Assembly: GCF_003143515.1 (NCBI RefSeq)
Contig: NZ_CP029343.1
Coordinates: 5,456,001 to 5,520,000, forward strand
Origin: Massilia oculi
Lineage (GTDB): Bacteria > Pseudomonadota > Gammaproteobacteria > Burkholderiales > Burkholderiaceae_D
DNA length: 64,000 bases
Direction: 5' to 3'
Shown: positions 24,151 through 64,000 of the stretch, piece after piece
Layout of the letters: each line of letters opens with the position of its first letter
How positions within the stretch are numbered: the stretch's first letter is position 1
Made by a program: the position numbers and the translations under genes
The notes under the pieces: model-generated
Seen by the model: the letters and a program-made list of their open reading frames with translations, nothing else
The model's database searches: none
What the model was told of the DNA's origin: nothing

Positions 24151-25596
24151 ATGACCACTTCCAGCTATCCCGACATCCGCCTCCTGATCGCCAACGAATG
24201 GGTCGACGCCACCGGCGGCAAAACCATCCCCGTGGTCAACCCGGCCACCGGACAGCCGATCGGCAGCGTGGCCCATGCCGCCATCGCCGACCTGGACCGC
24301 GCACTGGCCGCTGCCCAGAAAGGTTTCGAGGCCTGGCGCGTCGTTCCCGCCGCCGAGCGCGCCGCCACCATGCGCCGCGCCGCCAACCTGCTGCGCGAGC
24401 GCGCCGGCGAAATCGCGCGCCTGCTGACGCAAGAGCAGGGCAAACCGCTGGCCGAAGCGAAGATGGAAGCGATGGCCGGCGCCGAGATCATCGACTGGTT
24501 CGCGGCCGAAGGCATGCGGGTGTATGGCCGCATCGTCCCGTCGCGCAATCCGGCTGCCCAGCAGCTGGTGCTGAAGGAGCCGGTCGGCCCGGTCGCCGCC
24601 TTCACGCCATGGAACTTCCCGATCAACCAGGTCGTGCGCAAACTGGCCGCTGCGCTGGCCACCGGCTGCTCCTTCCTGTGCAAGGCGCCTGAGGAAACCC
24701 CGGCGTCGCCCGCCGCGCTGTTCCAGTGCTTCGTCGACGCCGGCGTGCCGCCGGGCGTGGTGGGCCTGGTGTTCGGCGATCCGGCCGAGATCTCGGGCTA
24801 CCTGATCCCGCACCCGGTCATCCGCAAGGTCACCTTCACCGGGTCGACTCCGGTCGGCAAGCAGCTGGCCGCGCTGGCGGGCGCCCACATGAAGCGCGTG
24901 ACGATGGAGCTGGGCGGTCATGCGCCGGTGATCGTCGCGGCTGACGCCGACGTTGCGCTGGCGGTCAAGGCCGCCGGTGGCGCCAAGTTCCGCAACGCGG
25001 GCCAGGTGTGCATCTCGCCGACCCGCTTCCTGGTGCACAACGCGGTCAAGGACGAGTTCACCCGCGCGCTGGTCAAGCACGCCGAAAGCCTCAAGCTGGG
25101 CGACGGCCTGCAGGAAGGCACCACCCTGGGACCGCTGGCCAATCCGCGCCGCCTGACGGCCATGTCGCAGCTCGTCGACGACGCGCGCGCCAAGGGCGCG
25201 GTAATCGCCACCGGTGGTGAGCGCGTGGGAGATGCCGGCAACTTCTTCGCGCCGACCATCCTGGCCGACGTGCCGCTCGAAGCGAGCGTGTTCAACGACG
25301 AGCCATTCGGCCCGGTGGCGGCGATCCGCGGCTTCGACAGCCTCGAGGATGCGATCGCGGAAGCCAATCGTCTGCCGTTCGGCCTGGCCGGCTATGCGTT
25401 CACCAGCTCGATCAAGAACGCCCAGCTGCTGATGAACCGGGTCGAAGTCGGCATGCTGTGGATTAACCAGCCGGCCACGCCGAGCGCCGAAATGCCGTTC
25501 GGGGGCGTCAAGGATTCCGGCTACGGTTCCGAAGGCGGTCCCGAGGCGCTGGAATCGTACCTCAACACCAAGGCCGTCTCGATGGTCGGGGTCTGA
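24151..25596 (+). CDS. Alpha-ketoglutaric semialdehyde dehydrogenase (aldehyde dehydrogenase family)
   Basis: A 481-residue NAD(P)-dependent aldehyde dehydrogenase. The catalytic Cys287 lies in [18 protein letters not shown] and the general base Glu253 in [11 protein letters not shown]. The C-terminus has [20 protein letters not shown] and [17 protein letters not shown]. This overall sequence, including [20 protein letters not shown], closely resembles from memory the Azospirillum AraE-type enzyme. That enzyme oxidises 2,5-dioxopentanoate to 2-oxoglutarate at the end of the oxidative L-arabinose and galacturonate/galactarate routes. Succinate semialdehyde dehydrogenase is the main alternative. 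Starts at 24145 and 24142 are possible; no strong ribosome-binding site decides. It opens the pectin-sugar region and could take arabinan-derived carbon. Confidence 0.82.
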
Positions 25597-26092
25597 TCCG
25601 GTTGCTGCAGCCCGGCGCCGGATTGGCTGCCGGGCCATTGCGGGCCTGGGCGGTGGGGGCCTTGCAACTCGCTGTCATCAACCCTTGTGCTTGACCACGT
25701 GGGCGGCGCAGCGGGCCAATGACGCCGGTACTCGCCGCTGCTGATATGGAAGATCGAACCGTGGCATTGCTTGCTGCGGCCGTCATCGATCCTGGCTGGG
25801 CCCGGGCGGCGCAAGCGCTCCGGCCGTGACAGGTCGTCGCTGGTGAGAGCCAGGCAGCCGGCCTGGCGCGCATGCTGGTCGATCCACACCGCCCATCCGC
25901 TCGTCTGCGCGATCCGGAACAGGATGGGTCCCCACGTCCTTGCCGGTCGGGTATGCGTGCCGGCCAGGGGAACGATTGATCAGCATGTTGATCGGATGGA
26001 CATCGTCGCAGGCGGCGGAGCACTCTTATACTGCCGGGCGGGACGCGAGGTTCCCGCATGCTCGGCGCCCCGGGCGCGACACTGGAGAGTCG
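25597..26092. other. Intergenic stretch, no supported gene
   Basis: About 495 bases between the semialdehyde dehydrogenase and GH43 genes. Minus-strand frames are open here (for example from about 25950 down to 25700, with FRIAQTSGWAVWIDQH), but they show no start signal or known family. They may be decayed coding sequence. It should hold the GH43 promoter. Confidence 0.35.
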
Positions 26093-27616
26093 ATGATCGC
26101 ATATTTCCGCCGCGGCGGCCGGTGCGCCTGCCTGGCGCTGGTCCTGGCGCTTGCTGGCGCGACGCAGCAGGCAAGCGCCGCCCAGACCACCATCCGCAAC
26201 GGCACCTTCTGGAAGGACACCGCCGGCACGCCGATCTACTCGCAGGGCGGCGGCATCCTCAGGGTCGGCGCGAAGTATTACTGGTATGGCGTGAAATATG
26301 CCGAAGCGGTGAGCTACGCCAACGCGCCCGGACGGGCTCTCGATCAGCCGCACTTCAGCGCGGTGACCGCCTATTCGTCGACCGACCTGGTGAACTGGAC
26401 CTTCGAAGGCGACGTCTTCACGCCCCAGGGCCTTGGCGAGCGCTACGATCCGAAGGCCTGGCTGGGACGCATGGGCGTGGTGTACCACGAGGCGACACGC
26501 AAGTATGTGCTGCTCACCCAGTACAGCAGCAAGGGCACGGGCGGCGGCGTGCTGTTCGCCACCAGCGCCAGTCCAAACGGCCCCTTCGTGTTCGAGCGCC
26601 TGCAGGCGAAGATCGACAACGTCGCCACTCCCACCTCGGGCGACCAGACCGTATTCACCGACGACGACGGCCAGCCTTACCTGATCTTCAGCAGCAGCGG
26701 CGACCGGCGCCAGTTGTACGTGGCGCCGCTGCGCCCATCCGACTTCCTGCAGGTCGAAGCGGCCACGAACATCCACAGTGCGCCGGCGGGCGGACGTGAA
26801 GGCAATGCGATGTTCAAGCACCAGGGCCTGTACTATTTCTGCTCGTCCGACCTGCACGGCTGGAACGCCTCGCGCAGCTTCTACATGACGTCGCCGAACA
26901 TCACCGGCCCGTATACGCCCGAGCGCATCATCGAGGGCACCGAGGCGGACTTTTCACACGTGTCGCAGAACGGCTTCTTCATTCCGGTCCAGGGCAGCGC
27001 CGGCGCCACGGTGCTGTATGCGGGCGACCGCTGGAGCAATTTTGCCGGGAACGGGCATGGTTACCATGTCTGGGCGCCGCTGTCCTTCGAGGGCGCCGAG
27101 CCGCGGTTCAACTCGCTCAGCGAATTCACGCTGGACGCCGCCCGCGGCACCTGGGTCGCCGGCAAGGGCAATAACTACCTGCTCAACCCCGGCTTCGAGG
27201 CGGACCGGGTGCGGCAGACGAGCCTCGCCGGATGGGTGAGCAGCTGGACCAGCATCAAGGGCGATGCGCCGTTGATGAACGTGCTGGATGGACGCACGGG
27301 ACGCTGGGCACTGAGCCTGCGCCATGCGGGGCAGACGATGGGCAGCGCGATCCAGAACGTCACGCTGCCGAACGGCCGCTACACTCTCAGGGCGTGGGTG
27401 AAAAGCAGCGGCGGCCAGCGCGTGGCGCGCCTGTACGCGTCCGGCCACGGCGGCGCCGGGATCGCCCGCTCCTTGCCGGACAAGTTGGCGCACTGGACGG
27501 AGGTGACGCTGCCCGGCATCCAGGTCGCCACCGGCAGCGTGCAGATCGGCGTCTATTCGGAAGGGAAGGACGGCGATTGGCTCGCCCTCGACGACTTCAG
27601 CCTGGTGCGGGAATGA
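26093..27616 (+). CDS. GH43-family glycosidase with C-terminal carbohydrate-binding module
   Basis: A 507-residue exported enzyme: signal peptide (MIAYFRRGGRCACLALVLAL ... ASA), then a five-bladed propeller. Blade features are GGGILRVGAKYYWYGVKYAE, YSSTDLVNWTFEGDVF, GRMGVVYHEATRKYVLLTQY, TSGDQTVFTDDDGQPYLIFS and YYFCSSDLHGWNASRSFYM. These resemble the GH43 group that includes exo-beta-1,3-galactanases. Residues ~360-507 form a jelly-roll module (LLNPGFEADRVRQTSLAGWV, then NGRYTLRAWVKSS), as in CBM4/9/16-type binders. It likely trims galactan or arabinogalactan side chains. GAGAG precedes the ATG. The stop overlaps the next gene by four bases (ATGA). Confidence 0.83.
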   Translation: MIAYFRRGGRCACLALVLALAGATQQASAAQTTIRNGTFWKDTAGTPIYSQGGGILRVGAKYYWYGVKYAEAVSYANAPGRALDQPHFSAVTAYSSTDLVNWTFEGDVFTPQGLGERYDPKAWLGRMGVVYHEATRKYVLLTQYSSKGTGGGVLFATSASPNGPFVFERLQAKIDNVATPTSGDQTVFTDDDGQPYLIFSSSGDRRQLYVAPLRPSDFLQVEAATNIHSAPAGGREGNAMFKHQGLYYFCSSDLHGWNASRSFYMTSPNITGPYTPERIIEGTEADFSHVSQNGFFIPVQGSAGATVLYAGDRWSNFAGNGHGYHVWAPLSFEGAEPRFNSLSEFTLDAARGTWVAGKGNNYLLNPGFEADRVRQTSLAGWVSSWTSIKGDAPLMNVLDGRTGRWALSLRHAGQTMGSAIQNVTLPNGRYTLRAWVKSSGGQRVARLYASGHGGAGIARSLPDKLAHWTEVTLPGIQVATGSVQIGVYSEGKDGDWLALDDFSLVRE

Positions 27617-29979
27617 TGAACATCGCAACGATGACGATGGGCGCGGCCCGCTTGGCCGTGTTTGTGCTTGTGCTGTCCGCGCCCGCACTGGCGGCGCAGC
27701 TGAACCTGAACGCATCCTGGCAGTTCTACCGCGACGAGGGCGGCCAGGTCGCCAGCGCCGACCAGGTGCCGGAGGGCGCCTGGTCGGAAGTGAACCTCCC
27801 GCACGCGGCGCGTATCGAGCCGCGCGTGCCCGCAGCGCCCTGGCAGGGCACCGTGTTCTACAAGAAGCGCCTGGACGTCAAGCTGCGGCCGGGCGAGCGC
27901 GCCATCCTGCGTTTCGAGGGCGTGATGAATGTGGCCGACGTCTGGCTGAACGGCCGCCACCTGGGACAGCACCTGGGCGGCTACCTGCCGTTCGCCTACG
28001 ACGTCACCGATGGCTTGCGGACTACGGGCGCGAATGAACTCGTGGTGCGCGCCAATAACGAGGACAATCCCATCACCGGCCCCAAGCCGCTCAAGCAGCT
28101 CGACTACATCCAGCATGGCGGCATCTACCGCGACGTGCGGCTATCGATCAAGCCGCCAGTGCACGTCACGGACGAGATGCTCTCGGCCACGCCCGGCGGC
28201 GGCGGCGTATTCGTGACGTATCCGCGCGCCGACAAGGACGAGGCGCTGGTGCAGGTACAGGCCGAGGTCAGCAACACGTCGCGGAGCCCGCAGGCGGTCA
28301 CCGTCCGCCACACGCTGGCATGGGAGGGCCGCCAGGTGGCCCGGGTTGAAGAGCGGCTGCGCCTCGCGGCCGGGGAACGGCGCCATGTCACCATGCCGCT
28401 GACCCTGCGCGCGCCAAGATTGTGGTCGCCGCGCTCGCCCAGCCTGTACCGGTTGGAGACGAGGGTCTCCGCTGCCGGCCACGAGGACGTGGTCGCGACC
28501 CGTATCGGCGTGCGCCGCCTGGCGTTCGAGGACGGCCGCCTGCTGCTCAACGGCGAGCCGCTGCGCCTGCGCGGCGTCAACCGTCACCAGGAATATCCCT
28601 ACGTCGGCTACGCGCTGTCGCCGCAGGCCGACGCGCGCGATGCGCTCCTGATCAAGCGCTATGGCTTCGACTTCGTGCGCTTGTCGCACTATCCGCAGTC
28701 GCCGGCCTTCATGGCGGCGGCAGATGAACTGGGCCTGATGGTCTTGCCGGCCATTCCCGGGTGGCAGTTCCACAATCCCGACCCGGCCTTCGCGCGCCAG
28801 GCGCTGCGCACCTGCGCCGACATGATCCGGCGCGACCGCAACCACGCCAGCGTCCTGGCCTGGGAATGCTCGCTCAACGAAACCGACATGCCGGCCCCGC
28901 TGGTGCAGGCGCTGCACGCCACCGTGCACCAGGAATACCCTGGCGACCAGGCCTGGTCCGCCGGCTGGGTGCCGCAGACCTATGACCTCTACCTGCAGGC
29001 GCGCCAGCACAGGATCGGCAGCAGGCATGCCTTGCCGGCCAAGCCGCTGATCGTGTCCGAGTATGGCGACTGGGAATACTATGCGATGAACGCGGGCCTG
29101 AACCAGGATGCCTGGGCCGACCTCAAGCCGGCCGACCGATCGAGCCGCCAGGCGCTGGGCAGCGGCGAAACGCGGCTGCTGCAGCAGGCGCGCAACGTGG
29201 CCGAGGCCCACGACGACAATGCCGCGACGCCCGCCTTCGCCGACGGCTACTGGGTCATGTTCGACTATGCGCGCGGTTATGCACCGGATCTCGAAGAATC
29301 GGGACTGCTCGGCATCGAGCGCCTGCCAAAGTTCGCGGCCGAGTTCTTCCGCTCCCAACGTAGCGCCACCGAGAGTTCACCCCGCTGGCGCGGCGGCCCG
29401 ATGGTCTTCATCGCCAGCTACTGGCAGGCCGGGTCCAGTCCGCGCGTGCGCGTGTTCAGCAATGCCGAGGAGGTCGAGCTGCGACTGAACGGCAAGCCGG
29501 TAGGACGCAAGCAAGGCGCGCCATCCCGCGCCCACCCGCGTCTGGCCCATCCGCCGATCGAATTCGATACAGGCGGTTTCGCGCGCGGCGAACTCGTGGC
29601 GCTGGCCTATTCCGGCGGACGGCTCGTGGCCGAGCACCGCGTGCGCACGCCGCAGCGGCCGACGACGCTGGCGCTGGAAATCGACGACCTCGGCGTGCCC
29701 GCGGTCGCCGGCGACCTGGTCTTCCTGCGCGCCCGTCTGCGCGACGCCAACGGCACCACGGTGCCGGCGAGCGGCACCGAAGTCGCGTTTTCCGGCATCG
29801 AAGGCGCGCAGATCGTCGGTAGCGACGTGGCCGCGAGCGAGGCCGGGATCGCCAGTGTGCTCGTGCGCGTGACGGGGCCGCGCGCCGGCGTCAGGGCGCG
29901 GGCGCAGGCGGGCGGCCTGCATGGAGCGCTCGTCGGCGCCCCAGGTTCTGGTGGGAGAAGCCGGTCGAAAAAGAGATGA
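27613..29979 (+). CDS. GH2-family glycoside hydrolase (beta-galactosidase-like)
   Basis: A 788-residue exported enzyme with signal peptide (AARLAVFVLVLSAPALAAQ). The GH2 domains come in order: sugar-binding jelly roll (FEGVMNVADVWLNGRHLGQH, then GGYLPFAYDV), Ig-like domain, then TIM barrel with RGVNRHQEYPYVGYA and YGFDFVRLSHYP. The likely acid/base is Glu423 (AWECSLNET) and the nucleophile Glu483 (LIVSEYGDWEYY). C-terminal Ig-like domains resemble those of DUF4982-type galactosidases (VRVFSNAEEVELRLNGKPVG). It probably removes beta-linked galactose from pectic galactan; beta-glucuronidase is an alternative. It is coupled to the preceding GH43 gene and the following pseudogene by ATGA overlaps. 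The last residues (GSGGRSRSKKR) look non-native. Confidence 0.85.
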   Translation: MMNIATMTMGAARLAVFVLVLSAPALAAQLNLNASWQFYRDEGGQVASADQVPEGAWSEVNLPHAARIEPRVPAAPWQGTVFYKKRLDVKLRPGERAILRFEGVMNVADVWLNGRHLGQHLGGYLPFAYDVTDGLRTTGANELVVRANNEDNPITGPKPLKQLDYIQHGGIYRDVRLSIKPPVHVTDEMLSATPGGGGVFVTYPRADKDEALVQVQAEVSNTSRSPQAVTVRHTLAWEGRQVARVEERLRLAAGERRHVTMPLTLRAPRLWSPRSPSLYRLETRVSAAGHEDVVATRIGVRRLAFEDGRLLLNGEPLRLRGVNRHQEYPYVGYALSPQADARDALLIKRYGFDFVRLSHYPQSPAFMAAADELGLMVLPAIPGWQFHNPDPAFARQALRTCADMIRRDRNHASVLAWECSLNETDMPAPLVQALHATVHQEYPGDQAWSAGWVPQTYDLYLQARQHRIGSRHALPAKPLIVSEYGDWEYYAMNAGLNQDAWADLKPADRSSRQALGSGETRLLQQARNVAEAHDDNAATPAFADGYWVMFDYARGYAPDLEESGLLGIERLPKFAAEFFRSQRSATESSPRWRGGPMVFIASYWQAGSSPRVRVFSNAEEVELRLNGKPVGRKQGAPSRAHPRLAHPPIEFDTGGFARGELVALAYSGGRLVAEHRVRTPQRPTTLALEIDDLGVPAVAGDLVFLRARLRDANGTTVPASGTEVAFSGIEGAQIVGSDVAASEAGIASVLVRVTGPRAGVRARAQAGGLHGALVGAPGSGGRSRSKKR

Positions 29980-30627
29980 TGAGAGGATCGCCATCCCGCA
30001 GGCGTTTCGTGCAGCTGGCAGCGGCACTGGCCGCCGTACCAGGCGCACCGATCGTCTCCCACTCCGCTACCGCGAATGTCGGGGGCGAAGGCAAGCCGGT
30101 CGCCGGCGCGCTTCGAAAGCGCCACCCTGGGCGTGCCGTGGCCGCGCGGCCGGGTGACGATGCAGCGCCTGCGCCAGGTCGCGCTGCGCCAGGATGGGGC
30201 CGAGCCGGAAGGCCAAGGCAGTGTGCGCCGCGAACTCTTCACCAGCAAGGTCGCGCACGTCACGCTGGAGCAGGGGGGCGGTGCGGGCCGTCGTCAAGCT
30301 CGACGGCGTGCACGCGGCGCGCGCCGGCGGCACGCGCGACTGGCTCCCGTTCTCGCTGCGCCTGTACTTCCATGCCGGTGCGGACAACGTGCGCATCATT
30401 CATTCCTTCATCGATGACGGCGACCCGGCCAGGGATTTCATCGGAGGACTCGGCGTGACGGCGAGGGTAGCCATGAACGATGCCAGCCACGACCGCCACG
30501 TGCGCGTTGCCGGCGAAAGGGAGCGGTGCTCAAGCTCCGCCCGGACACGCCCCAGTACTATATCGCCGGCGCCAGCGGCATGCGGTTGGACAACGTGATC
30601 GTCAACGGCCAGAAGGCCGTGTTGTAG
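29976..30627 (+). pseudogene. Scrambled PL26 (YetA-like) exo-rhamnogalacturonan lyase remnant with GH28-like tail
   Basis: An ATG overlapping the GH2 stop begins a twin-arginine-type leader (SPSRRRFVQLAAALAAVPGA). Coding sense then moves between frames. Near 30085-30285 it reads FESATLGVPWPRGRV and RRELFTSKVAHVTLEQGG. At 30285-30525 it reads VRAVVKLDGVHAARAGGTRD, LPFSLRLYFHAGADNVRIIH and GDPARDFIGGLGVTARVAM. These pieces match the style of the N-terminal RIFT-barrel region of PcRGLX/YetA-type PL26 lyases. The last 33 codons (LKLRPDTPQYYIAGASGMRL, DNVIVNGQKAVL) look instead like the C-terminus of a GH28 polygalacturonase. About 600 residues of a normal PL26 are missing, so this is a genuine deletion product and cannot be explained by sequencing error alone. 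One frame change falls in a G6 run. Confidence 0.7.
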
Positions 30628-30630
30628 GCC

Positions 30631-31797
30631 TCACAGGCTGCCGGCGCCGGCAGCCGCGCGGCAGACATGCACGGTGGCCTGCGCGCCGTTCGGCGCCCGG
30701 TATTCGCGGTCCAGCGCCTGCCGCGCGGCCTCTACCAGCTCTTCCGGCACCAGCGCCACCACGCAGCCGCCGAAGCCGCCGCCGGTCATGCGCACGCCGC
30801 CGGCTTCTCCGATCGCTTCCTTGACGATGTCGACCAGGCGGTCGATCGCGGGCACGGTGATCTCGAAGTCGTCGCGCATCGATGCGTGCGAGGCCGCCAT
30901 CAGTTCCCCCATGCGTTGCAGGTCGCCAGAGGCCAGCGCCCCTGCCGCCGCGACGACGCGCTCGTTCTCGCTGACGACGTGGCGTGCGCGGCGCAGCGTG
31001 ACCGGATCGAGCCCGGCGCCTTTCTCGGCAAGCATGGCCAGGTCGACGTCGCGCAGGGCCGGCACGCCGAAGTGACGCGCCGCTTCCTCGCACTGCGCGC
31101 GGCGCGTGTTGTAGGCGCTGTCGACCAGGCCGCGGGTGATGTGCGATTCGACGATCATGATCGCCGCGCCAAGCGGGATCGGCACCGGGCTGACTTCCAG
31201 CGAACGGCAGTCGATCAGCAGGGCATGGTCCTGGACGCCGCAGGCGGAGCTGATCTGGTCCATATTGCCGCACTTGCAGCCGACGAAGTCGTTTTCCGCC
31301 CGTTGTGCGACCAGGGCCGCCTCGATCGGTCCCAGGCCCGGATAATCGGGGAGGGTGGAGAAGAGGGTGCAGACCGCCACCGACAGCGAGGCCGATGACG
31401 ACAGGCCGGCGCCTTGCGGCACGTCGCCGGCGATGACCATGTCCATGCCGCGCAACGAGCGGCCAGCCGGCTCGCGCTGCAGCAGTTCGTGCACCACGCC
31501 GCGCACGTAATTGGACCACATCGGCGCGGCCAGGCGTTCGATCGGCTTGTCGAGCGCGTATTCGTCGATGGCGTCGTCGTAGTCGGCGGCCACCACCCGC
31601 ATGCAGCGGTCGGCGCGCGGGCGCGCCACGATCACCGTGCGGTATCCGATGGCGCAGGGCAGCACCAGGCCGCCGTTGTAGTCGGTGTGCTCTCCGATCA
31701 GGTTGACCCGGCCCGGGGCCTGGACCCGGATCGTGGCCGGCTGGCCGAAGGCGGCCAGGAAGACGTCGGCCGCTCTGGCCGTCAAGGAATCGCTCAT
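30631..31797 (-). CDS. galK: Galactokinase
   Basis: A 388-residue GHMP-family kinase that phosphorylates alpha-D-galactose. The N-terminal galactokinase signature GRVNLIGEHTDYNGGLVLPC, the ATP-binding DVPQGAGLSSSASLSVA and the C-terminal RMTGGGFGGCVVAL are all present. ATG at 31797 is the family start (MSDSLTARAADVFLAAFG); the frame is open to 31836. It is the last gene of a symporter-galT-galK operon with a 7-base gap to galT. It should process galactose freed by the GH2 and GH35 enzymes nearby. Confidence 0.95.
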   Translation of the reverse strand: MSDSLTARAADVFLAAFGQPATIRVQAPGRVNLIGEHTDYNGGLVLPCAIGYRTVIVARPRADRCMRVVAADYDDAIDEYALDKPIERLAAPMWSNYVRGVVHELLQREPAGRSLRGMDMVIAGDVPQGAGLSSSASLSVAVCTLFSTLPDYPGLGPIEAALVAQRAENDFVGCKCGNMDQISSACGVQDHALLIDCRSLEVSPVPIPLGAAIMIVESHITRGLVDSAYNTRRAQCEEAARHFGVPALRDVDLAMLAEKGAGLDPVTLRRARHVVSENERVVAAAGALASGDLQRMGELMAASHASMRDDFEITVPAIDRLVDIVKEAIGEAGGVRMTGGGFGGCVVALVPEELVEAARQALDREYRAPNGAQATVHVCRAAAGAGSL

Positions 31798-31804
31798 CGT
31801 GCGC

Positions 31805-32869: not shown

Positions 32870-32906
32870 CGCGTTTCTCGTCATGGTCGGTTGGTCGGTC
32901 TTGAGC

Positions 32907-53598: not shown

Positions 53599-53616
53599 TG
53601 CATGGAGGAGACGAGC

Positions 53617-54923: not shown

Positions 54924-55247
54924 ATGACCGTTCACGCCACGCTGGCGTTCCGCATGAAGCTCAAGGCCGGCAACGCGCAAGAATATCGCCGCCGGCACGA
55001 CGCCATCTGGCCCGAGCTGGCGGCGCTGCTGTCTGGCGCCGGCATCCACGACTATGCGATCTTCCTGGACGAAACGACGCTCGACCTGTTCGCGGTGATG
55101 AAGCTGGGCCCGGGGCATGAGCTCGGGCCGCTGCCCGAGCATCCGGTGATGCGCAAATGGTGGGATTACATGGCAGACCTGATGGAGGTCGAGCCGGGCA
55201 ACCGGCCGAAGGAGTGGCCGCTGACCCAGGTATTCCACCTGGCCTGA
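54924..55247 (+). CDS. rhaU: L-rhamnose mutarotase
   Basis: A 107-residue enzyme that interconverts alpha and beta anomers of L-rhamnose. Motifs are AFRMKLKAGNAQEYRRRHDA, IWPELAALLSGAGIHDYAIF and WWDYMADLMEVEPGNRPKEW, with conserved His and Tyr in the first and a Trp pair in the last. In R. leguminosarum the mutarotase gene lies in the transporter operon; here it is moved to the end of rhaDI. The name rhaM is also in use for this function. Confidence 0.93.
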   Translation: MTVHATLAFRMKLKAGNAQEYRRRHDAIWPELAALLSGAGIHDYAIFLDETTLDLFAVMKLGPGHELGPLPEHPVMRKWWDYMADLMEVEPGNRPKEWPLTQVFHLA

Positions 55248-55311: not shown

Positions 55312-56661
55312 TCAGCGCGCCGGGAAGCTGCGCTGGAGCCAGGCCTTCGGCACCGGCACCACCACGATGTTCATCGAGCGGCCGTCTTCCGACAGCATCG
55401 CCGACTGGATCTGGATGCGGGTGCCGTCGGCATTGAAGGTGGGGTGCGGATGGTCGGCCGCGGTGGTCTTGTGGCCGGTGGTGAGCAGCATCATCTCGCG
55501 GTTGCGGCGGTCGATCAGGTAGACGCTGCGGCTGAAGTCGTCGCCAACGGCGAAGCGGCCGTCGCTCGAGCCGTGCACGTGCCACAGGCCGCTGCCCGAC
55601 GCGGTCTGGCCGACGATCTGCATCTGGCGCGTGCGCAGGTTGACGATCGCCAGGCCGGTCGGCTTTTCGCGGGTGCCGGTAGCGCCCCAGCCATCGTCCT
55701 GGCCTGGATTGGCGCCGCTGACGTCGGTGGCGGGCCCTGGCACCGCTGATGCCGCGCCGGGGATCGCGCGATGGCCCATGATGGCCATCGCCACCTCGTC
55801 CTTCGTGATCACCGCCTCGTGCGTGACCCATTCATACGGCGCCTCCGGATACAGCGGACGCAGGCCGCTGCCGTCAGCGCGCACGGTCCAGGTGCGCTGC
55901 GGCGACTTGCCGCCGGTCTCCCAGCAGAACACGATCTCGCCCGGATTCCACAGATTGGCCTGGATGTGGCCGACCTGGAACGGCACCGATACCACGTGTT
56001 TTATTTCGCCGGTGCGCACGTTCAGGCGCGCGATGCCTTGCGGGCCGGCGCCCATCTTGCGCGGGCCGAAGGCCGGCTCGATCTTCGTGCCGGGCGGCAG
56101 GTGCTTGGCGGCCTGGCCGGGGCCGACCTTGAAATAGACCCATTCTTCGTCGGCGTCGAGCGCCAGGTCGCCGCCGGCTTCCAGTTCGGACGGCAGGTTC
56201 GAGACCACGCGCTGGTAGCTCGCCGCGGGCTGCATGCGCTTGGCGGCGCTGTCGGCCAGCACGCGCGCAAGATCGGTTTCGACGATCTGCAGGCCAGCAT
56301 CCGCCTTGCGCATGTAGTACAGCTTCATCGACTTCTGCGCCAGGTTCAGCATGCCGGTATAGCCGCCTTCGGTCACCTGCACCAGGTCGCCCGTCTCCTC
56401 GTTCACCGCCAGCGCCTCGCTGCCGGCGAGGCGCGAGCGGAATACCAGCCACTTGCCGTCGGCGGTCCATTGCGGGTGGGTCGGGTAGATCTTCGAATCG
56501 CCGTGCGGTTTGCTGGTCAGGAAAGTTAGTTCGGTGCCGGTGACCGGATCCTTGACCAGCTTGCGCTCGGAGGGAAAGCGCTTGCCGATCTGGGCCGAGG
56601 CATCGGTGCACAGCAGCAGCGCGACGGCCAGGGCGATCGCGGAATGCGTGAGGGGTCGCAT
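55312..56661 (-). CDS. PL22-like oligogalacturonate lyase family protein (exported beta-propeller)
   Basis: A 449-residue exported protein; ATG at 56661 has AAGGAGA upstream and gives the signal MRPLTHSAIALAVALLLCTD. It forms a seven-bladed TolB/WD40-like propeller: IYPTHPQWTADGKWLVFRSR, VGHIQANLWNPGEIVFCWET, RTWTVRADGSGLRPLYPEAP, YEWVTHEAVITKDEVAMAIM and DHPHPTFNADGTRIQIQS. These His-containing blades match the style of PL22 oligogalacturonate lyases, where His residues bind Mn. Known PL22 enzymes are mostly cytoplasmic or periplasmic and act on short oligogalacturonides. The exact substrate could be rhamnogalacturonan fragments. It is divergent from the tandem esterase gene. Confidence 0.75.
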   Translation of the reverse strand: MRPLTHSAIALAVALLLCTDASAQIGKRFPSERKLVKDPVTGTELTFLTSKPHGDSKIYPTHPQWTADGKWLVFRSRLAGSEALAVNEETGDLVQVTEGGYTGMLNLAQKSMKLYYMRKADAGLQIVETDLARVLADSAAKRMQPAASYQRVVSNLPSELEAGGDLALDADEEWVYFKVGPGQAAKHLPPGTKIEPAFGPRKMGAGPQGIARLNVRTGEIKHVVSVPFQVGHIQANLWNPGEIVFCWETGGKSPQRTWTVRADGSGLRPLYPEAPYEWVTHEAVITKDEVAMAIMGHRAIPGAASAVPGPATDVSGANPGQDDGWGATGTREKPTGLAIVNLRTRQMQIVGQTASGSGLWHVHGSSDGRFAVGDDFSRSVYLIDRRNREMMLLTTGHKTTAADHPHPTFNADGTRIQIQSAMLSEDGRSMNIVVVPVPKAWLQRSFPAR

Positions 56662-56735
56662 GCGGGTGTCTCCTTCTTGTGGATGTTGTCCGCTCATTGT
56701 TACAGTACGAGTTGCTCATTTCCAATCATATTGCT

Positions 56736-56783: not shown

Positions 56784-56817
56784 CTGCCTGTGACAACGAC
56801 CGACGGAGACCGTGGCA

Positions 56818-59091
56818 ATGACTGTTTCTCGCGCCCTGCAGCGGATACTGGTATGGCTGGCGCTGGCCTGCGCCATGGCATCAGGCCAGGCACAAGGTCC
56901 GACCGCCGCAATGAATACCGACCCCGCCCGTGCCCAGGTCGTGCTGCCGGAACCGGCCAATCCGTCCCTGCCTTCGATCATCCTGATCGGCGACTCCACC
57001 GTGCGCAACGGCCACGACGACGGCCAGGGCAAGGGCGCACGAGGGCAGTGGGGCTGGGGGAATCCGCTGGCGGCCCACGTCGATGCGGCGCAAGTGAACC
57101 TGGTGAACCGCGCCGTGGGCGGCCTGTCCAGCCGCACTTATATCAGCAGCGGGCATTGGGAGCGCACGCTGGCCCTGGTCAAGCCGGGCGACGTCGTCAT
57201 CATGCAGTTCGGGCACAACGACGCCTCGCCGGTGAACGACGACAAGCGTGCGCGCGGCACCCTCCGCGGCGCGGGCGCCGAGTCCACCGAGATCGACAAC
57301 CTCCTGACCGGCAAGCGCGAGACGGTGCACAGCTACGGCTGGTACCTGCGCACATATATCGCCGACATTCGCGCCAAGGGGGCGACGCCGGTCGTCGCCT
57401 CGCTGGTCCCGCGCAAGGCCTGGAACGACGATGGGGGCAAGGTGCGCCGCAACCGATCCGATTACGCCGGCTGGGCGGCCGAGGTGGCGCGTAGCGAGAA
57501 GGTGGGCTTCATCGACCTGAACGAGATCGTGGCGGAGCGCTACGACACGATGGGACCTGACGCCGTCATGGCGCTGTTCCCGGCCACCGTTCCGGACGAG
57601 CGCGTTCACACCAACTGGGCCGGCGCCGCCCTCAATGCCCAGGTCGTGGCGACCGAGCTGGCAAAGCTGGGCGACCCGCGCATGAAAACGTTCCTGAAAC
57701 CGGTGGAAGACGTGCGGCCGGTGATCGATGCGCGCACGGTGCGCGACGAGACGGCGCGCGATCCGACGCTGCCGACCCTGTTCCTGGTCGGCGACTCCAC
57801 CGTCAAGAGCGGTGGCCAGGACGGCGCGATCGGCTGGGGCGAGCGCATCGCACCGTACTTCGACGCCGGCAAGATCAACGTGGTCAACGCCGCGATCGGT
57901 GGACGCAGCAGCCGTACCTTCTTCACCGAGGGGCGCTGGGAGCGGGTCAGGGCGCAGCTCAAGCGCGGCGACGTGGTGGTGATCCAGTTCGGTCATAACG
58001 ACGGCGGCCGCATCGGCGACCCGGCCTCGAAGAACCGCGCCTCGGTTCCTGGCATCGGCCCTGAGACGGTCGAGGATACCCGCCCGGACGGCAGCAGGGA
58101 GCAGGTGCACAGCTTCGGCTGGTATATGGCCCGCTACGTCGCCGACGCCAGGGAAAAGGGGGCGACCGTGGTCATCGCATCGCCGATCCCGCACCGCGAC
58201 AAGTGGCAGCATGAACGCGACTTCGCGAACTTCGCCGACTGGGGCCGGGAGGTAGCCGTGGCCGGCGGCGCCCACTTCATGGACTTGACGATGCTGGTCT
58301 CGAACGCCTACCGTGACGTCGGGTCGGCGACGGTCGACACCTTCTTCTCCGACGCCCGTACCCACACCAATGCCGCCGGCGCCGAATTCAATGCGCGCCA
58401 GGTCGTCGCCGGCCTGGCCGCGCTGGCGGGCAACCCGCTGGGCGCATATTTTTCGCCGCAAGCCTGCGTGCGCTGGGGCGAGCGCGGCGCCTTGCTCCAT
58501 CACGACGATTTCAATGGCCCCTTGACCGGCTATGTGAGCGAGTATGCGCGCAAACCCGGCAACGTCGTCGCCAACCGCGATGGCCGCCTGCTGATCGACG
58601 TCGATTCGGGCGCCACCGTGTGGCTCGACAAGCCCTTGTCGGGCAATGTACTGATCTCCTATACGCGCCGGGTGGTGGTGGACGGCGGGCCGAACGACCG
58701 CCTGTCGGACCTGAACCAGTTCTGGATGGCGCGCGACCCGGCGCGCGCTTCTCTGTTCACCCGCTCCGGTAAGTTCGAAGACTACGATGACCTGGAAATG
58801 TACTACGCCGGCATAGGCGGCAACGGCAACACCACCACGCGCATGCGCCGCTACGCCGACGGCAAGCGCGAGCTGGTCGCCGAGCGCCTGGGCCGCGACT
58901 TCCTGCTCGAGCCGAATCGCGACTATCGCGTCGAGATCGCGGTGCGCGACGGCTGCACGCGCATGCGCGTGGACGGCCGGGATGTCTTCACCTACTACGA
59001 CCCGCGGCCGCTCACGCACGGGTATGTGGGTTTGCGCACCACGTGGTCGCGCCAGACCATCGCCGGACTGACCATCCACCAAATCCAATAA
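56818..59091 (+). CDS. Tandem CE12 rhamnogalacturonan acetylesterase with DUF6250 domain
   Basis: A 757-residue exported protein (signal MTVSRALQRILVWLALACAM). Two complete SGNH/CE12 esterase domains follow each other. The first has IILIGDSTVRNGHDDGQG, NRAVGGLSSRTYIS, MQFGHNDASPVNDD and Asp/His in PDERVHTNWAG. The second has LFLVGDSTVKSGGQDGAIGW, NAAIGGRSSRTFFT, IQFGHNDGGRIGDP and Asp/His in SDARTHTNAAGA. Both catalytic sets look intact. Residues ~560-757 are a DUF6250 beta-sandwich (LLHHDDFNGPLTGYVSEYAR, NQFWMARDP). It removes acetyl groups from the rhamnogalacturonan-I backbone before lyase attack. ATG at 56818 has GGAG upstream. GH105 follows 15 bases later. Confidence 0.88.
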   Translation: MTVSRALQRILVWLALACAMASGQAQGPTAAMNTDPARAQVVLPEPANPSLPSIILIGDSTVRNGHDDGQGKGARGQWGWGNPLAAHVDAAQVNLVNRAVGGLSSRTYISSGHWERTLALVKPGDVVIMQFGHNDASPVNDDKRARGTLRGAGAESTEIDNLLTGKRETVHSYGWYLRTYIADIRAKGATPVVASLVPRKAWNDDGGKVRRNRSDYAGWAAEVARSEKVGFIDLNEIVAERYDTMGPDAVMALFPATVPDERVHTNWAGAALNAQVVATELAKLGDPRMKTFLKPVEDVRPVIDARTVRDETARDPTLPTLFLVGDSTVKSGGQDGAIGWGERIAPYFDAGKINVVNAAIGGRSSRTFFTEGRWERVRAQLKRGDVVVIQFGHNDGGRIGDPASKNRASVPGIGPETVEDTRPDGSREQVHSFGWYMARYVADAREKGATVVIASPIPHRDKWQHERDFANFADWGREVAVAGGAHFMDLTMLVSNAYRDVGSATVDTFFSDARTHTNAAGAEFNARQVVAGLAALAGNPLGAYFSPQACVRWGERGALLHHDDFNGPLTGYVSEYARKPGNVVANRDGRLLIDVDSGATVWLDKPLSGNVLISYTRRVVVDGGPNDRLSDLNQFWMARDPARASLFTRSGKFEDYDDLEMYYAGIGGNGNTTTRMRRYADGKRELVAERLGRDFLLEPNRDYRVEIAVRDGCTRMRVDGRDVFTYYDPRPLTHGYVGLRTTWSRQTIAGLTIHQIQ

Positions 59092-59106: not shown

Positions 59107-60531
59107 ATGCAATCATCCAAGCCGCGCCACACCCTGATGGCCATACTCGTGGCGGGCCTGTTCCCGTTTGCCCTGGATGCGAGCGCGCAGGACGCGCCTC
59201 CGCCGCAAGAAAAAGGGCCGGCGCCGGCCGACGCCATGCTGCATGCGCTCGACGTGAAGTACCCGACGCCTTACCGCGCGATGGAAGCGGCCGAGATCAA
59301 GGCCGTGCTCGATCGCGTGTTCGCCTACCTCGACCGCACCACGCCGGCGGAACTGATCGACAAGACCACGGGCGCCGCCATCACCGATGTGTCGACGGCC
59401 AATCCGAACGCCGTGCTCAAACCCGGCGACTTCCGCCTGAACAGTTATGAATGGGGCGTGACGTATATCGGCATGCTGGCGGCGGCCCAGGCCACCGGCG
59501 ACGCCCGCTACCAGGATTACATGACCAAGCGACATACCCTGCTGTCGCAGCTGACCCGCGCCTATTTGCCGGTGGTGAAGGCGGACGCGCAGAACGCGCA
59601 TGCGCCGATCAAGGGCTTCCTGAATCCGCATGCGCTGGACGATGCGGGCGCGCTGTGCCACAGCTTCCTGAAGGCCAAGGTGGCCGGTTCGAAGGTCGAC
59701 TACGGCCAGATGATCGGCGTGTGCGGCGACTTCGTCACCAACAAGGAATACCGGCTGAAGGACGGCACGCTGGCGCGCGGCGGCCCGGACGGAAAAGGCG
59801 GCCGCAAGATGCGCCCGCTGCCGGACACCCTGTGGCTGGACGATATGTTCATGGGCGTGCCGACCATGGCCTACCTGGGCAAGACGACGGGCGACAGCAA
59901 GTACTACGACGACGCGGTACGCCAGGTGCAGCAGTTCTCCAAGCGCATGTTCAATCCCAAGCTCGGCATCTACATGCACGGCTATGTCGAGGGCAAGCGC
60001 GATCATCCCGAGCTGCGCTGGGCCCGCGCCAACGGCTGGGCGGTGATGTCGATGGTCGAAGTGCTGGAAGTGCTGCCGAAAACCCACAAAGGATATAACG
60101 CCGTGCTCGAACAGTTGCGCGCCCACATCCGCGGCCTGGCCGGCTACCAGACCCGCGACGGCTTCTGGCACCAGCTGATCGACCGCAACGACACCTACCA
60201 GGAGACCTCGGCCACCGCGATCTATGCCTACGCGATCGCGCGCGCGGTCAACCGCGGCTACGTCGAGCCCGAGATGTATGGTCCGATGGCCAACCTGGCC
60301 TGGAATGCCGTTGCCAGCAAGGTCACGCAGAGCGGCCAGATTGAAGGGATCTGCGTCGGCACCGGCATGGCCTTCGACCCGGCCTTCTATGCCTATCGTC
60401 CGACCAGCGTGAAGGCGGCGCATGGCTACGGGCCGACCCTTCTCGCTGGCGCCGAGATGATCGAGATGAACAAGAAGTTCAAGTTCGGATTGAACGACAG
60501 CGGGTTGATGTTCCAGGGCGGGCAGCAGTAG
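59107..60531 (+). CDS. GH105 unsaturated rhamnogalacturonyl hydrolase
   Basis: A 474-residue exported enzyme (signal AILVAGLFPFALDASAQ). The (alpha/alpha)6 barrel shows SYEWGVTYIGMLAAAQATGD, LPDTLWLDDMFMGVPTMAYL (catalytic Asp), WARANGWAVMSMVEVLEVLP, GFWHQLIDRNDTYQETSATA and GTGMAFDPAFYAYRP. GH105 enzymes such as YteR cut the unsaturated galacturonosyl residue left by rhamnogalacturonan lyases. AAGGAG precedes the ATG. It is the second gene of an operon with the tandem esterase, a functionally consistent pair. Confidence 0.92.
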   Translation: MQSSKPRHTLMAILVAGLFPFALDASAQDAPPPQEKGPAPADAMLHALDVKYPTPYRAMEAAEIKAVLDRVFAYLDRTTPAELIDKTTGAAITDVSTANPNAVLKPGDFRLNSYEWGVTYIGMLAAAQATGDARYQDYMTKRHTLLSQLTRAYLPVVKADAQNAHAPIKGFLNPHALDDAGALCHSFLKAKVAGSKVDYGQMIGVCGDFVTNKEYRLKDGTLARGGPDGKGGRKMRPLPDTLWLDDMFMGVPTMAYLGKTTGDSKYYDDAVRQVQQFSKRMFNPKLGIYMHGYVEGKRDHPELRWARANGWAVMSMVEVLEVLPKTHKGYNAVLEQLRAHIRGLAGYQTRDGFWHQLIDRNDTYQETSATAIYAYAIARAVNRGYVEPEMYGPMANLAWNAVASKVTQSGQIEGICVGTGMAFDPAFYAYRPTSVKAAHGYGPTLLAGAEMIEMNKKFKFGLNDSGLMFQGGQQ

Positions 60532-60646: not shown

Positions 60647-61621
60647 CTACGGCGCCGGCGCCCTTAGCCGCTCCACCAGGCTGGCCGGCGCCGCGAACGC
60701 GGTCCCGTGACGCATCCTGCTCGGAAAGCGCATGCGGGCGCTGACGTCTTCCCAGTGCAGCATGTCGCGCGAGCGCAGCGCGCCGTAGTGGCCGGCCGTA
60801 TAGGCGTCGAAGTACAGCAGCACCTCGTCGCCGACCTGCAGCGCGCTCGGTCCCTCGGCCCACAGCCCCGCCGGCGTGAGCGGCGCACTCAATGGTCCGA
60901 ACGGGCCTTCCAGGCTCGCGGCCTGGGCGACCTGCATGTATTTGCGGGGTGGATGGCGGGTTTCGTCCTTCACCACCAGCCAGTCGCGCCCCAGCGCGCG
61001 CAGGAAGGTGGCGTCGATCACCGAGAAGCCCGGATCGTAGAACAGCCGGGTCGGCGTGAAGCTGGCGAAATCCTTCGTGGTGGTGGCGTAGATGCGGTGG
61101 TCATACTTCGTGTCGCCGGAGGCGTCGCCGCCGGCCTCGGTCTGGGGGAAGCGGCCGGGGATCGTCGATGACCACAGGATGAGGAAGTGCGCGCGTCCGG
61201 CGTCATGGAACACCTCGGGAGCCCAGGCATTGAGCGCGCCCGGCTCGTGGGCCATCACCGGCAGGCTGCGCTGGCCCGACCATCGCACCAGGTCGGGCGA
61301 GGAGGCGTAGCCGATGCCGGTATCGTTCCAGCCGCTGGTCCAGACCATATGGAACATCCCGTCGGGCCCGCGGGCGATGCACGGGTCGCGCATCAGCCTG
61401 GCCGGGCCGACGGTGGGCGCTAGGAAGCTGGCGCCGCCGCGCAGCGCCTCCCACTGGTAGCCGTCGCGGCTGGCGGCAAAATGCAGGCCGTCGGCGCCGT
61501 TGCCCAGGAAGTAAGAGAACAGGTAGGCCTGGTCTTCGGTGGTCCGGCTGGCCGGCAGTGGGCCGGTGCATCCGCCGAGCAGGCCGCTCGCCAGCAGGGC
61601 CAAGCTTGTACGGCGTCTCAT
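60647..61621 (-). CDS. GH43-type lipoprotein glycosidase
   Basis: A 324-residue lipoprotein (signal MRRRTSLALLASGLLGGC, lipobox LGGC). The propeller stretches are YLFSYFLGNGADGLHFAASR, RLMRDPCIARGPDGMFHMVW, LNAWAPEVFHDAGRAHFLIL (acid Glu), DPGFSVIDATFLRALGRDWL (Asp) and LWAEGPSALQVGDEVLLYFD. They place it among GH43/GH117-like five-bladed propellers, for which arabinosidase or galactosidase activity is possible. It is the last gene of a minus-strand run PL26-CE12-GH43, overlapping the CE12 stop by four bases. Substrate specificity is not readable. Confidence 0.75.
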   Translation of the reverse strand: MRRRTSLALLASGLLGGCTGPLPASRTTEDQAYLFSYFLGNGADGLHFAASRDGYQWEALRGGASFLAPTVGPARLMRDPCIARGPDGMFHMVWTSGWNDTGIGYASSPDLVRWSGQRSLPVMAHEPGALNAWAPEVFHDAGRAHFLILWSSTIPGRFPQTEAGGDASGDTKYDHRIYATTTKDFASFTPTRLFYDPGFSVIDATFLRALGRDWLVVKDETRHPPRKYMQVAQAASLEGPFGPLSAPLTPAGLWAEGPSALQVGDEVLLYFDAYTAGHYGALRSRDMLHWEDVSARMRFPSRMRHGTAFAAPASLVERLRAPAP

Positions 61622-62930
61622 CGGGCATTCCTTTGGGATGCGCCGGTGATCACTTCGCGCTGCCCGTCGTCGCCGAGCGGCCGAGGTTGCGTGCGGCCGG
61701 GGCTGGGCGGCACCGTGAAGCCGGACACCGGATCGGGATGGGCCGGGTCGAAACGGAAGTCGGGGACGAGGTGGGCGGCCAGCGCAAGCTTCGCCTCGCG
61801 CATGCCCAACGCCACCGCCTTGGCCAGCAGGTAGCTGCCATATGGGTTGTGATGGGTGTTGTCCAGCTTTCCCGGCGCGGGCGAGGCGAACGCCGCCTTC
61901 GAGCCTTCCACGCCCAGGGCGGCGTACAGGGTCTTGCTCATCGCGTTCAGGTCGATGAAGGGCACGTCCAGCTCGCGCGCCGACTGGCGCGCGGCTTCGG
62001 CGTAGTCGGTGAGCGATGGCTTGACCCGTCCCGCCTCGTCGAAGGCGCGCCGTTCGACCGGCGAGACGATCACCGGCAGGCCGCCGCGCGCACGCGCCAT
62101 GTCCACATGGGCCTTGATCTCGGCTTTATAGGTCGTGAACGGGCCGCTGCGGCCATCCTTGATCTGCTTCTGGTCGTTATGGCCGAACTGCATCAGAAGC
62201 AGGTCGCCCGGCTGCATCATGCTCAGGATCTTGTCGATGCGGCGGCGCGCCAGCGAGTCGCGGTAGGTCTCTCCCGACTGCGCATGGTTCGATACCGCGA
62301 CCGTTGAGCCGAAGAAGCGCGGGAGCATCTGGCCCCAGCTGTTATACGGTTCGCCCGGCTGGTCGCTCACGGTCGAGTCGCCCAGCAGGAAGATGGTCGG
62401 CACCCGGGCCGGCACGATCTCGACGCGCTGTACGGCGGCCGGGTCGCCATTGAATTCCAGGGTCAGGCGTTCGTCCCAGTTCCAGGCCTCGGACTCGGTC
62501 TCGCGCGGCGCCTTGAGGGCGACCGCGCCGGCCGCGACGCCGGGCACGGGAGCGATGCGCGCGGTGCGCACGTTGGCGACGAAGGTGCGCAGCACGCGCT
62601 GTCCGGCCGCCGCCGGCACGTTCTCGAGCATCAGCCGGCGCAGCTCGGACTTCACGGTGGTCGCGGTCGGCTGCGTGGCATGGCCCAGCACGACGGTGAC
62701 GGCGTAGTTGCCCTCGGGAGGCGGACCGAAAAATAACCGCCCGCGTCCTCGAAACCGTAGCCGCGCCCTGCATCGTAGGGTGTGCCGGGGGAGACACGGA
62801 CGTGGCCGGCGGGCGCCTCGGCGTCGCCGAACACGAATCGGGTCGGCGCCGCGCCGTGCGCCTGTGCGCCCAGCAGCGCGCCGGCCACCAGGCAGAGTGC
62901 GAGAAATGAGTGGGTCATGGCGAATCGCAT
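61618..62930 (-). pseudogene. CE12 rhamnogalacturonan acetylesterase, single frameshift
   Basis: The N-terminal part from 62930 encodes a signal peptide (HSFLALCLVAGALLGAQAHG) and the start of a beta-rich domain (PTRFVFGDAEAPAGHVRVSP, GRGYGFEDAGGYFSVRLP). Near 62716-62718, in a short C/G run, the frame changes. The adjacent frame continues EGNYAVTVVLGHATQPTATT and then a full SGNH/CE12 domain: TIFLLGDSTVSDQPGEPYNS, NHAQSGETYRDSLARRRIDK, MQFGHNDQKQIKDG and Asp/His in KLDNTHHNPYGSYL. One extra C would restore about 437 residues. The domain order, galactose-binding-like then SGNH, matches known bacterial rhamnogalacturonan acetylesterases. Confidence 0.82.
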
Positions 62931-62937
62931 GGACAGG

Positions 62938-64000
62938 TCAGAGGGCGTCACCGATCAACGCCAGGTTCTGGATCGCGGCCAGGCCCCACTGCGCGGTGTC
63001 GTTGGTGGTGACCCACGGCACCTCGAGGACCGGATTGAGCGTGGCCGCACCAAGCACCTCCGTGGTCACGAAGGGCGGATAGGGGCGGATGCCCGCGAAT
63101 TCGGTCCAGGCGCGGCGCGCCAGCGCCGGGTCCTTGCGCCGCCAGGCCGCGTATGCGGTCAGGCGCGAGTGGCCGATCACCAGCACGTCGGAGCCGCCAT
63201 GCGGCTTGCCCAGCCGGCGCTGCTGCTCGTCCTTCGGGGCGTTGTACAGCGCGCAGTAGTCGAGCCAGGCGCGCTCGAAGGCTTTGTTTCCGGTAAGGGC
63301 GATCAGTTCGTCGAACACCTCCACCGCCCCGAACACGGCGTTCAGGTGCGAGGCCTTGACGCTGTCGCCGGCCATATTGTGCAGGCGTCCGGTGCGGGGC
63401 TCGTAGCCCATGCGCTCGCCGCTGAAGAAGCCGTGCGGCATGGCGGCGATGTCGCGCATGCCGGTCAGGATCTTGTCGCGGTAGCGGGCGTCGCCGCTGC
63501 GTTCCCATTCGGTCAGCCAGTTCGCCGCGAGCGAGGCCCAGTCGGTGCCGAAGCTGGCGCGCACCGGATACGGACCCTTGGGCGGCTGGTTCGGCAGCTT
63601 GCGCACCGGGTCGACCGCATCCAGGCGCAGGTCGGCGTCCAGCAGCTCGCGCATCACGTCGCCGGTGCGTTCGTCGGCCGTGAGGTAATAGTAGATGCGG
63701 CGGTAGACCGCGGTGCTGATGCGCACCTGCTTGGCGCTGCAGCCCCAGTGCTGGACGTTGTGGCGCGTGCCCAGGCCGGCGAAGCGGCCCAGGTGGTAGG
63801 TGTCCACGTCCGTCGTGTGGCGCACCATGGCTTCGCCCATGCGGAAGATGTCGGCGCGGCCGCTGCGCAGAAAGGCGTACCACAGCCACAGGTCGGGCGA
63901 GAGTTCCGAGTTGGCCCAGGCATAGCCGCCGACGTCGTAGCGCCATTCGTGGCGGTCGGTATCATAGGTATGGCGCACGTCGCCATGGTCCCAGAAGCCG
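62938..64000 (-). CDS. PL26 exo-rhamnogalacturonan lyase (PcRGLX/YetA-like), C-terminal part
   Basis: The frame enters from beyond the right edge of the window; at least the last 353 residues are present. The translation GFWDHGDVRHTYDTDRHEWR, YDVGGYAWANSELSPDLWLW, RHTTDVDTYHLGRFAGLGTR, HNVQHWGCSAKQVRISTAVY and YYYLTADERTGDVMRELL is characteristic of the central (alpha/alpha) domain of PL26/YetA-like proteins. Family members cleave rhamnogalacturonan-I from the reducing end by beta-elimination. It ends 7 bases before the CE12 gene. An N-terminal remnant of a second copy lies at 29976-30627. Confidence 0.85.
   Translation of the reverse strand, partial: GFWDHGDVRHTYDTDRHEWRYDVGGYAWANSELSPDLWLWYAFLRSGRADIFRMGEAMVRHTTDVDTYHLGRFAGLGTRHNVQHWGCSAKQVRISTAVYRRIYYYLTADERTGDVMRELLDADLRLDAVDPVRKLPNQPPKGPYPVRASFGTDWASLAANWLTEWERSGDARYRDKILTGMRDIAAMPHGFFSGERMGYEPRTGRLHNMAGDSVKASHLNAVFGAVEVFDELIALTGNKAFERAWLDYCALYNAPKDEQQRRLGKPHGGSDVLVIGHSRLTAYAAWRRKDPALARRAWTEFAGIRPYPPFVTTEVLGAATLNPVLEVPWVTTNDTAQWGLAAIQNLALIGDAL

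Follow-up and report, generated by a model that had tools for sequence, protein, structure and literature searches.

A probable rhamnogalacturonan I utilization locus with a stand-alone TonB receptor in Massilia

The polysaccharide utilization loci (PULs) for rhamnogalacturonan I (RG-I) of Bacteroides combine rhamnogalacturonan lyases of the PL11/PL26 class (PL, polysaccharide lyase), side-chain hydrolases and uptake through SusC/SusD. Bacillus subtilis, which is Gram-positive, uses an ABC importer and has no TonB receptor, reportedly carries rhamnogalacturonan clusters with PL11 lyases, GH105 and CE12 esterases (GH, glycoside hydrolase; CE, carbohydrate esterase). PL11 lyases of B. ovatus have been characterised (PMC8787155). 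In Gramella flava JLT2011, a complete set of rhamnose utilization genes lies together with a pectin lyase and GH genes in a PUL-like cluster proposed to act on rhamnogalacturonan; the study notes that the cluster lacks an RG lyase and that transcription did not change significantly on pectin (PMC5306329). Here we analyze a gene cluster of Massilia oculi lying in a stretch of 64,000 nucleotides, hereafter the window, which corresponds to positions 5456001-5520000 of the 5.84-Mb single-contig genome; unless a genome is named, positions are counted from the first nucleotide of the window. With high probability, the cluster is a carbohydrate utilization locus containing a TonB receptor (CUT-type locus) for RG-I that carries arabinogalactan side chains.

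The cluster covers ca. 46 kb, from ca. 24142 to ca. 70134, ending ca. 6 kb beyond the right window edge, and is an ordinary, well-made example of a known RG-I locus type. A preliminary description, made from the letters of the window, had proposed RG-I as the substrate class, TonB uptake rather than SusCD, a single functional unit and a continuation past the right edge, and all four proposals are supported here, the single unit as a co-inherited one. Gene calls were checked by Pfam, NCBIfam and PDB searches, and nearly every earlier call held; the enzyme families it had listed are present at about the expected places, except that the gene at 40084-43887, called GH43-like/GH35, is a GH35. RG-I is indicated as the backbone substrate by the joint presence of PL26, PL11, a hydrolase matching the GH88 model and a CE12 module matching the rhamnogalacturonan acetylesterase 1deo, alongside rhamnose catabolism. 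The PL26 rhamnogalacturonan lyase (62938..65631, reverse strand) crosses the window edge at 64000 and is completed beyond it; then follow a DUF4861 gene (65636-66856), PL11 (66867 to ca. 68776; Pfam) and the L-lactate dehydrogenase LldD (69001-70134; NCBIfam over cut-off), whose position at the locus end would fit the step expected after lactaldehyde dehydrogenase. The acetylesterase match belongs to the second CE12 module of a CE12-CE12-DUF6250 fusion (56812..59091, forward strand; Pfam, PDB), for which 3c1u was also matched. It is followed by the unsaturated uronyl hydrolase of GH88/GH105 type (59107..60531, forward strand), whose Pfam model is GH88 and which we take to be GH105, as first called.

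Uptake is represented by a TonB-dependent receptor of the carbohydrate type (35773..38937, forward strand; Pfam), which matches the NCBIfam model TIGR01782 with 567 bits against a cut-off of 310 and adjoins carbohydrate-active enzyme (CAZyme) and sugar catabolism genes, the arrangement of a CUT locus. No SusD family member, as a SusCD-type PUL would have, was found among the genes scanned between 24142 and 70134, a scan of the locus rather than the genome that covered all genes but rhaP and open reading frames (ORFs) below ca. 100 amino acids. Genome-wide, the barrel family of the receptor has 64 matches, two of them with internal stops.

Concerning the side chains, type II arabinogalactan is a likely target, since the first GH43 (26093..27616, forward strand; Pfam, PDB; start at 26093 set by homology) is nearest to exo-beta-1,3-galactanases. 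Its PDB relatives include 7bys, 7byv and 7byx (galactan 1,3-beta-galactosidase) and 5flw (exo-beta-1,3-galactanase); the top match is 3vsf, labelled Ricin B lectin, and the C-terminal stretch resembles 2xom, a chain named arabinogalactan endo-1,4-beta-galactosidase. We take its galactanase type to be GH43 subfamily 24. Judged by nearest relatives, type II arabinogalactan would be at least as likely a target as plain arabinan or beta-1,4-galactan, so the arabinan/galactan chains first proposed seem too narrow; two relatives, G162 and G197, also carry a GH115 gene in this left arm.

To assess co-inheritance of the two arms, side-chain (left) and backbone (right), we sampled 61 genomes of the genus evenly out of a larger group. 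The gene of a PL22-like protein (55312..56697, reverse strand) served as backbone marker, and GH35 (E<=1e-60) and the TonB receptor (E<=1e-100) as side-chain markers, with at most 10 and at most 13 candidates scored per genome, respectively. The backbone marker is strong in 23 of the 61 genomes, or 24 if a weak match of 25% identity in G164, excluded from the counts, is included. GH35 occurs in 25 genomes, 21 of the 23 with the backbone marker and 4 of the 38 without it (Fisher p 2e-10), and the TonB receptor in at least 16, at least 15 of the 23 and 1 of the 38 (Fisher p 9e-8), both p values ignoring kinship. Where both are present, GH35 and the backbone marker lie on the same contig in 18 of 21 genomes with starts 15-36 kb apart, and the TonB receptor and the marker in 12 of 15 with starts 20-46 kb apart. 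The order of the right arm is kept in M. timonae, M. aurea, M. arenae, M. alkalitolerans and others, and in seven relatives in which both arms were mapped it is largely kept throughout. As far as sequence comparison goes, conserved order and co-occurrence of both arms confirm that the cluster is real and beyond chance, and there is good evidence that the arms would form a single RG-I unit, inherited together and variable in its accessory genes.

The accessory set is seen in the relatives themselves. All three that were examined (G162, G197 and G126) hold a second, full-length PL26 together with a GH28 beside galK, and G126 has a second PL11 in the locus. In G181, the only genome of its type scanned, the interval from rhaI to the PL22-like gene contains a GH106, a second GH88/GH105, an esterase and a gene of the 3-keto-disaccharide-hydrolase family. 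PL26 is uncommon in the family, with 10 of 145 genomes. The CE12-CE12-DUF6250 protein is encoded by one ORF in the Massilia strain, G162, G197 and G126, by separate ORFs for CE12-CE12 and DUF6250 in G191, and with a whole PL26 gene between the two in G018, G181 and G172, which suggests that the fusion arose by loss of the intervening PL26 gene. The left arm of G197 also encloses Rhs/PAAR and VgrG-like type VI secretion genes (G197:C2:1102000-1109000).

From this gene content we infer the following order of steps, with regulation and localisation read in the same way. GH43, GH2 and GH35 enzymes would trim arabinose and galactose, and the CE12 modules would remove acetyl groups. The Rha-GalA backbone would then be cut by beta-elimination through PL11, an endo-acting family, and PL26, an exo-acting one, and the products would pass the outer membrane via the TonB receptor. 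Oligomers would be finished by the GH88/GH105 enzyme and perhaps also by the PL22-like protein. Rhamnose could be taken up by RhaSTPQ and broken down by RhaM, RhaI, RhaK, the aldolase/dehydrogenase fusion and LldD, and galactose could enter through a sodium:solute symporter (SSF) and be processed by GalK and GalT.

Several observations weigh against this reading. At E<=1e-100, with up to 13 candidates scored, the TonB receptor was not found in 8 of the 23 marker genomes, and with at least 15 of 23 carrying it the receptor may not be obligatory. In G197 the arms are at least 130 kb apart, with GH35 on contig C2 at 1.09/1.22 Mb and the backbone arm at the start of contig C5; this appears to be a true separation, and the other different-contig cases may be contig breaks. 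The left arm showed no regulator gene. KduI has no match in the genome, so the unsaturated uronate from GH105 must take another route or be left, and GH106, relevant to terminal rhamnose, has none either. In the best 80 of the 210 relatives of the PL22-like protein confirmed in a genome scan, the available flanks were searched by tblastn with window genes for an RG-I marker: all 29 Oxalobacteraceae or other betaproteobacterial loci (labelled by title) have one, and among the other 51 loci 31 have one and 20 do not, so the PL22-like gene need not be RG-specific. Finally, rhaK (near 44380), the single CE12 gene (near 62715) and PL11 (near 68420) are frame-interrupted in the assembly against three relatives.

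The separation in G197 would suit two adjacent but separate loci, the left arm serving arabinogalactan and the right arm the RG backbone and rhamnose, as would the four marker-less genomes with GH35, the GH115 genes and the galactan 1,3-beta-galactosidases and exo-beta-1,3-galactanase among the relatives of the first GH43. This arrangement is rather unlikely in view of the strong co-occurrence and linkage of the arms and of the second PL26 and GH28 (three of three relatives) and second PL11 (G126) within the left arm, from which it follows that the left arm also handles pectin backbone.

The frame interruptions, in turn, bear on whether this locus still works. Aligned with G162 at the DNA level, the locus is collinear in blocks and lacks segments at three sites. 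Scar A (25660..25968, by homology) holds a C-terminal remnant of ca. 84 amino acids from a GH43-type gene pair still present in G162, G197 and G126. Scar B (29991..30624, forward strand) contains remnants of the second PL26 in three frames and then the C-terminal end of the GH28; the comparison with G162 at 30107-30560 shows most of the former and nearly all of the latter gone. Scar C (34838..35512, by homology) retains pieces of an epimerase-family gene, presumably uronate-dehydrogenase-like, and of a second GH2; relative to G162, the GH115, most of the epimerase-family gene and most of the second GH2 are gone, and in G197, too, the last two are partly lost. As read from these alignments, the scars are losses relative to relatives that keep the genes.

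Together with the interrupted rhaK, CE12 and PL11, the three scars could mean a decaying, non-working remnant, the more so as the genome has no match to an FGGY_C_2 kinase besides rhaK, which would leave none matched were its break real. We regard such decay as improbable: the deletions took accessory genes, and the other compared locus genes are at least 80% covered and ca. 77-99% identical to those of relatives. Frame changes affect 3 of the 28 locus genes (remnants included) and 10 of 111 control genes outside (p 0.73), the control being G000:C1:5316001-5436000 plus the locus flanks; matches below 65% identity or 60 amino acids were dropped before counting. This comparison is uneven, since for many of the genes outside G197 is the single comparator and some of the ten flags may be G197 errors or start-site artefacts, making the outside rate an upper bound for the assembly, and since the inside three were hand-picked (CE12 flagged by two of three comparators, PL11 by three of four), an all-comparator rule giving 2 of 28, rhaK and the remnant of the second PL26; one outside gene flagged by one of two comparators is not among the ten. 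The flagged outside genes suggest indel errors in the Massilia assembly or in the comparator, and because the inside rate is close to this background, decay is not readable from the frame changes. Locus-specific decay, tried as an explanation for them, was accordingly rejected after the control, and assembly indels are the simplest reading of all three.

The remaining genes of the left arm start with an aldehyde dehydrogenase at its edge (24142..25596, forward strand; Pfam Aldedh 530 bits), for which the top NCBIfam model, SSADH, reaches 466 bits, below its cut-off of 646, and which has a 98% relative at the same place in G162. To the left of the locus, a lower-GC stretch encodes a small PEP-CTERM protein (22937-23572). 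The first GH43 is followed by a GH2 of the beta-galactosidase type (27613..29979, forward strand; Pfam, PDB, homology). Its ORF call at 27232 is too early, homology to G126 beginning at ca. 27625; a frameshift, considered for its odd N-terminus, was rejected on the clean alignment with G126 from that point. The galactose import and Leloir genes first described there are supported by Pfam: galactokinase galK (30631..31836), galactose-1-phosphate uridylyltransferase galT (31805..32923) and the SSF symporter (32907..34577), all on the reverse strand, the last a probable galactose importer to judge by its neighbours. Beyond the TonB receptor lie a second GH43 (38976..40037, forward strand; Pfam, PDB), whose PDB relatives include 9nxj, 9nxg and 3akf (putative alpha-L-arabinofuranosidase II), and the GH35 beta-galactosidase of 1267 amino acids (40084..43887, forward strand), with 269 bits for Pfam GH35 and 28 bits for GH42. 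In the PDB, both the GH2 and the GH35 match beta-galactosidases. An Rfam scan of 19000-64000 gave no match.

The rhamnose genes, described at first as complete operons, are one set in two divergent groups, in which the rhamnulokinase gene rhaK (44029..45440) shows a frame change near 44376-44385 in the assembly. On the reverse strand, rhaK is accompanied by the permeases rhaQ (45437..46489; Pfam, relatives) and rhaP (46486..47517; sequence and relatives, without a Pfam scan), the ABC ATPase rhaT (47514..49109; Pfam), the rhamnose-binding protein rhaS (49146..50165; TIGR02637, 451 bits, cut-off 342) and a DeoR-family regulator (50162..51142; Pfam, NCBIfam). A fused double permease at 45437-47560 was rejected, RhaP and RhaQ being two overlapping genes. 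The forward-strand group consists of a bifunctional rhamnulose-1-phosphate aldolase/short-chain dehydrogenase (51332..53491; NF006189 and TIGR02632 over cut-off), the rhizobial-type L-rhamnose isomerase rhaI (53602..54921; TIGR02629, 702 bits, cut-off 647) and the L-rhamnose mutarotase rhaM (54924..55247; Pfam). With the RhaS, RhaI and aldolase/dehydrogenase models all over cut-off, the L-rhamnose pathway is of the rhizobial type.

In the right arm, between the GH88/GH105 enzyme and PL26, are a GH43-like gene with a BT_3657-like N-terminal domain (60647..61621, reverse strand), barely over the Pfam cut-off (32.9 versus 32.2) and without a PDB relative at E<=0.001, and the single CE12 esterase (61618..62951, reverse strand; ORF 61618-62691 with other-frame homology to 62951). 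The DUF4861 gene scores 316 bits for the BT3233 family of NCBIfam, just below the cut-off of 320, and has no PDB relatives except a chance-level match; no literature on DUF4861 or DUF6250 was found in the collection searched. LldD is followed by an integrase-family gene and then by unrelated genes. The integrase-family gene (70153-71259; L001:7154-8260) lies directly after LldD and is probably not a recent insertion, since G162 and G197 hold relatives with 94% identity. Further on is a BD-FAE-type esterase (73328-74290), whose 72% relative adjoins the PL22-like gene in G126.

The PL22-like protein remains below the threshold of the family it was first assigned to, with 22 bits for PF14583 against a cut-off of 30, and the model was precomputed on 25 of 120 listed relatives; the key residues, in turn, are kept. 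Among at least 4194 relatives at E<=0.001 in 8000 candidates scored, many are named oligogalacturonide lyase by their sources. In the genome scan, the nearest relatives with a species name come from M. aurea (92% identity) and, at 96%, from M. timonae and M. arenae. We aligned 31 relatives with the Massilia protein, to which they are 66-92% identical; most belong to Oxalobacteraceae or Bacteroidota, one to an Acidobacteria metagenome-assembled genome (MAG) and one to a MAG labelled Williamsia, and 156 columns are invariant across the 32 sequences. Identity between Betaproteobacteria (Massilia) and Bacteroidota is 64-75%, an unusually strong conservation for which an old transfer or strong constraint are possible explanations. 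The family profile locally resembles the oligogalacturonate lyases 3c5m (E 4e-6, ca. 87 residues) and 3pe7 (E 3e-5, ca. 75 residues). R268 and H293, presumably catalytic, align to PL22 chain positions 217 and 242, and H416 and H418 of an HPH motif, which we take to bind metal, align to 3pe7 positions 353 and 355 in a weak 2-bit extra segment only; all four are invariant in the 32 sequences, and the Gln that we take to be a ligand in PL22 is not kept. The Massilia protein thus shares the Arg, His and His-Pro-His positions with these lyases and differs in being longer, in a signal-peptide-like start (by eye) and in scoring under the Pfam cut-off. Canonical PL22 gave four weak matches in 229 genomes of the class, none over cut-off and none in the Massilia genome. 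Ten neighbours scanned with Pfam in 5 of the 20 marker-less loci include one each of SusD, a TonB plug, GH3 and a glucuronyl-esterase-family protein, the rest being unrelated genes or without a Pfam match.

Taken together, the PL22-like protein probably acts as a lyase on pectic oligomers, and specificity for RG is only a possibility. That it represents a separate, secreted PL22-type branch acting on RG-derived rather than homogalacturonan oligomers is a somewhat doubtful proposal; if true, the protein would fill an exo-acting step, so far unassigned, between PL11/PL26 and GH105. Oligogalacturonate lyases act on homogalacturonan oligomers, and the distant match to them, the source names of many relatives and the GH28 in the locus of relatives would agree with a wider pectin specificity of the locus, with homogalacturonan oligomers degraded by the PL22-like enzyme and RG-I only one part of the target. 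We find this unlikely, as the Pfam-scanned locus genes, including those past the edge, contain no homogalacturonan lyase family and the only GH28 over cut-off in the genome lies outside the locus, ca. 123 kb right of the window; the search past 64000 for PL and GH28 genes suggested at the outset recovered PL11 and, as far as 70134, no GH28.

A literature search found no such locus for Massilia or Oxalobacteraceae, weak evidence of absence as most subscription journals lay outside the search, and in the accessible text of PMC9880256 Massilia occurs only in a reference. The RG-I loci known to us come from Bacteroidota and Bacillus, and a probable betaproteobacterial one now has a parts list, boundaries, a conserved order and a stand-alone TonB receptor; it also shows one lineage losing accessory genes piecemeal. 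The PL22-like protein, DUF4861, DUF6250 and the BT_3657-like GH43 stand out as candidates for assay. Compared with the cluster of Gramella flava, a member of the Bacteroidota for whose pectin PUL SusC/SusD is described, the Massilia locus shares the grouping of rhamnose utilization genes with lyase and GH genes, and differs in having PL26 and PL11 and no SusD seen (PMC5306329). With rhizobial-type rhamnose catabolism it has RhaS, RhaI and the aldolase/dehydrogenase in common, but here these genes are embedded in a polysaccharide locus and rhaK is interrupted in the assembly. Where the Bacteroides RG-I PULs use SusC/SusD, Massilia has a single TIGR01782-type receptor, and by analogy the locus appears to work like such RG systems, with the stand-alone receptor replacing SusCD.

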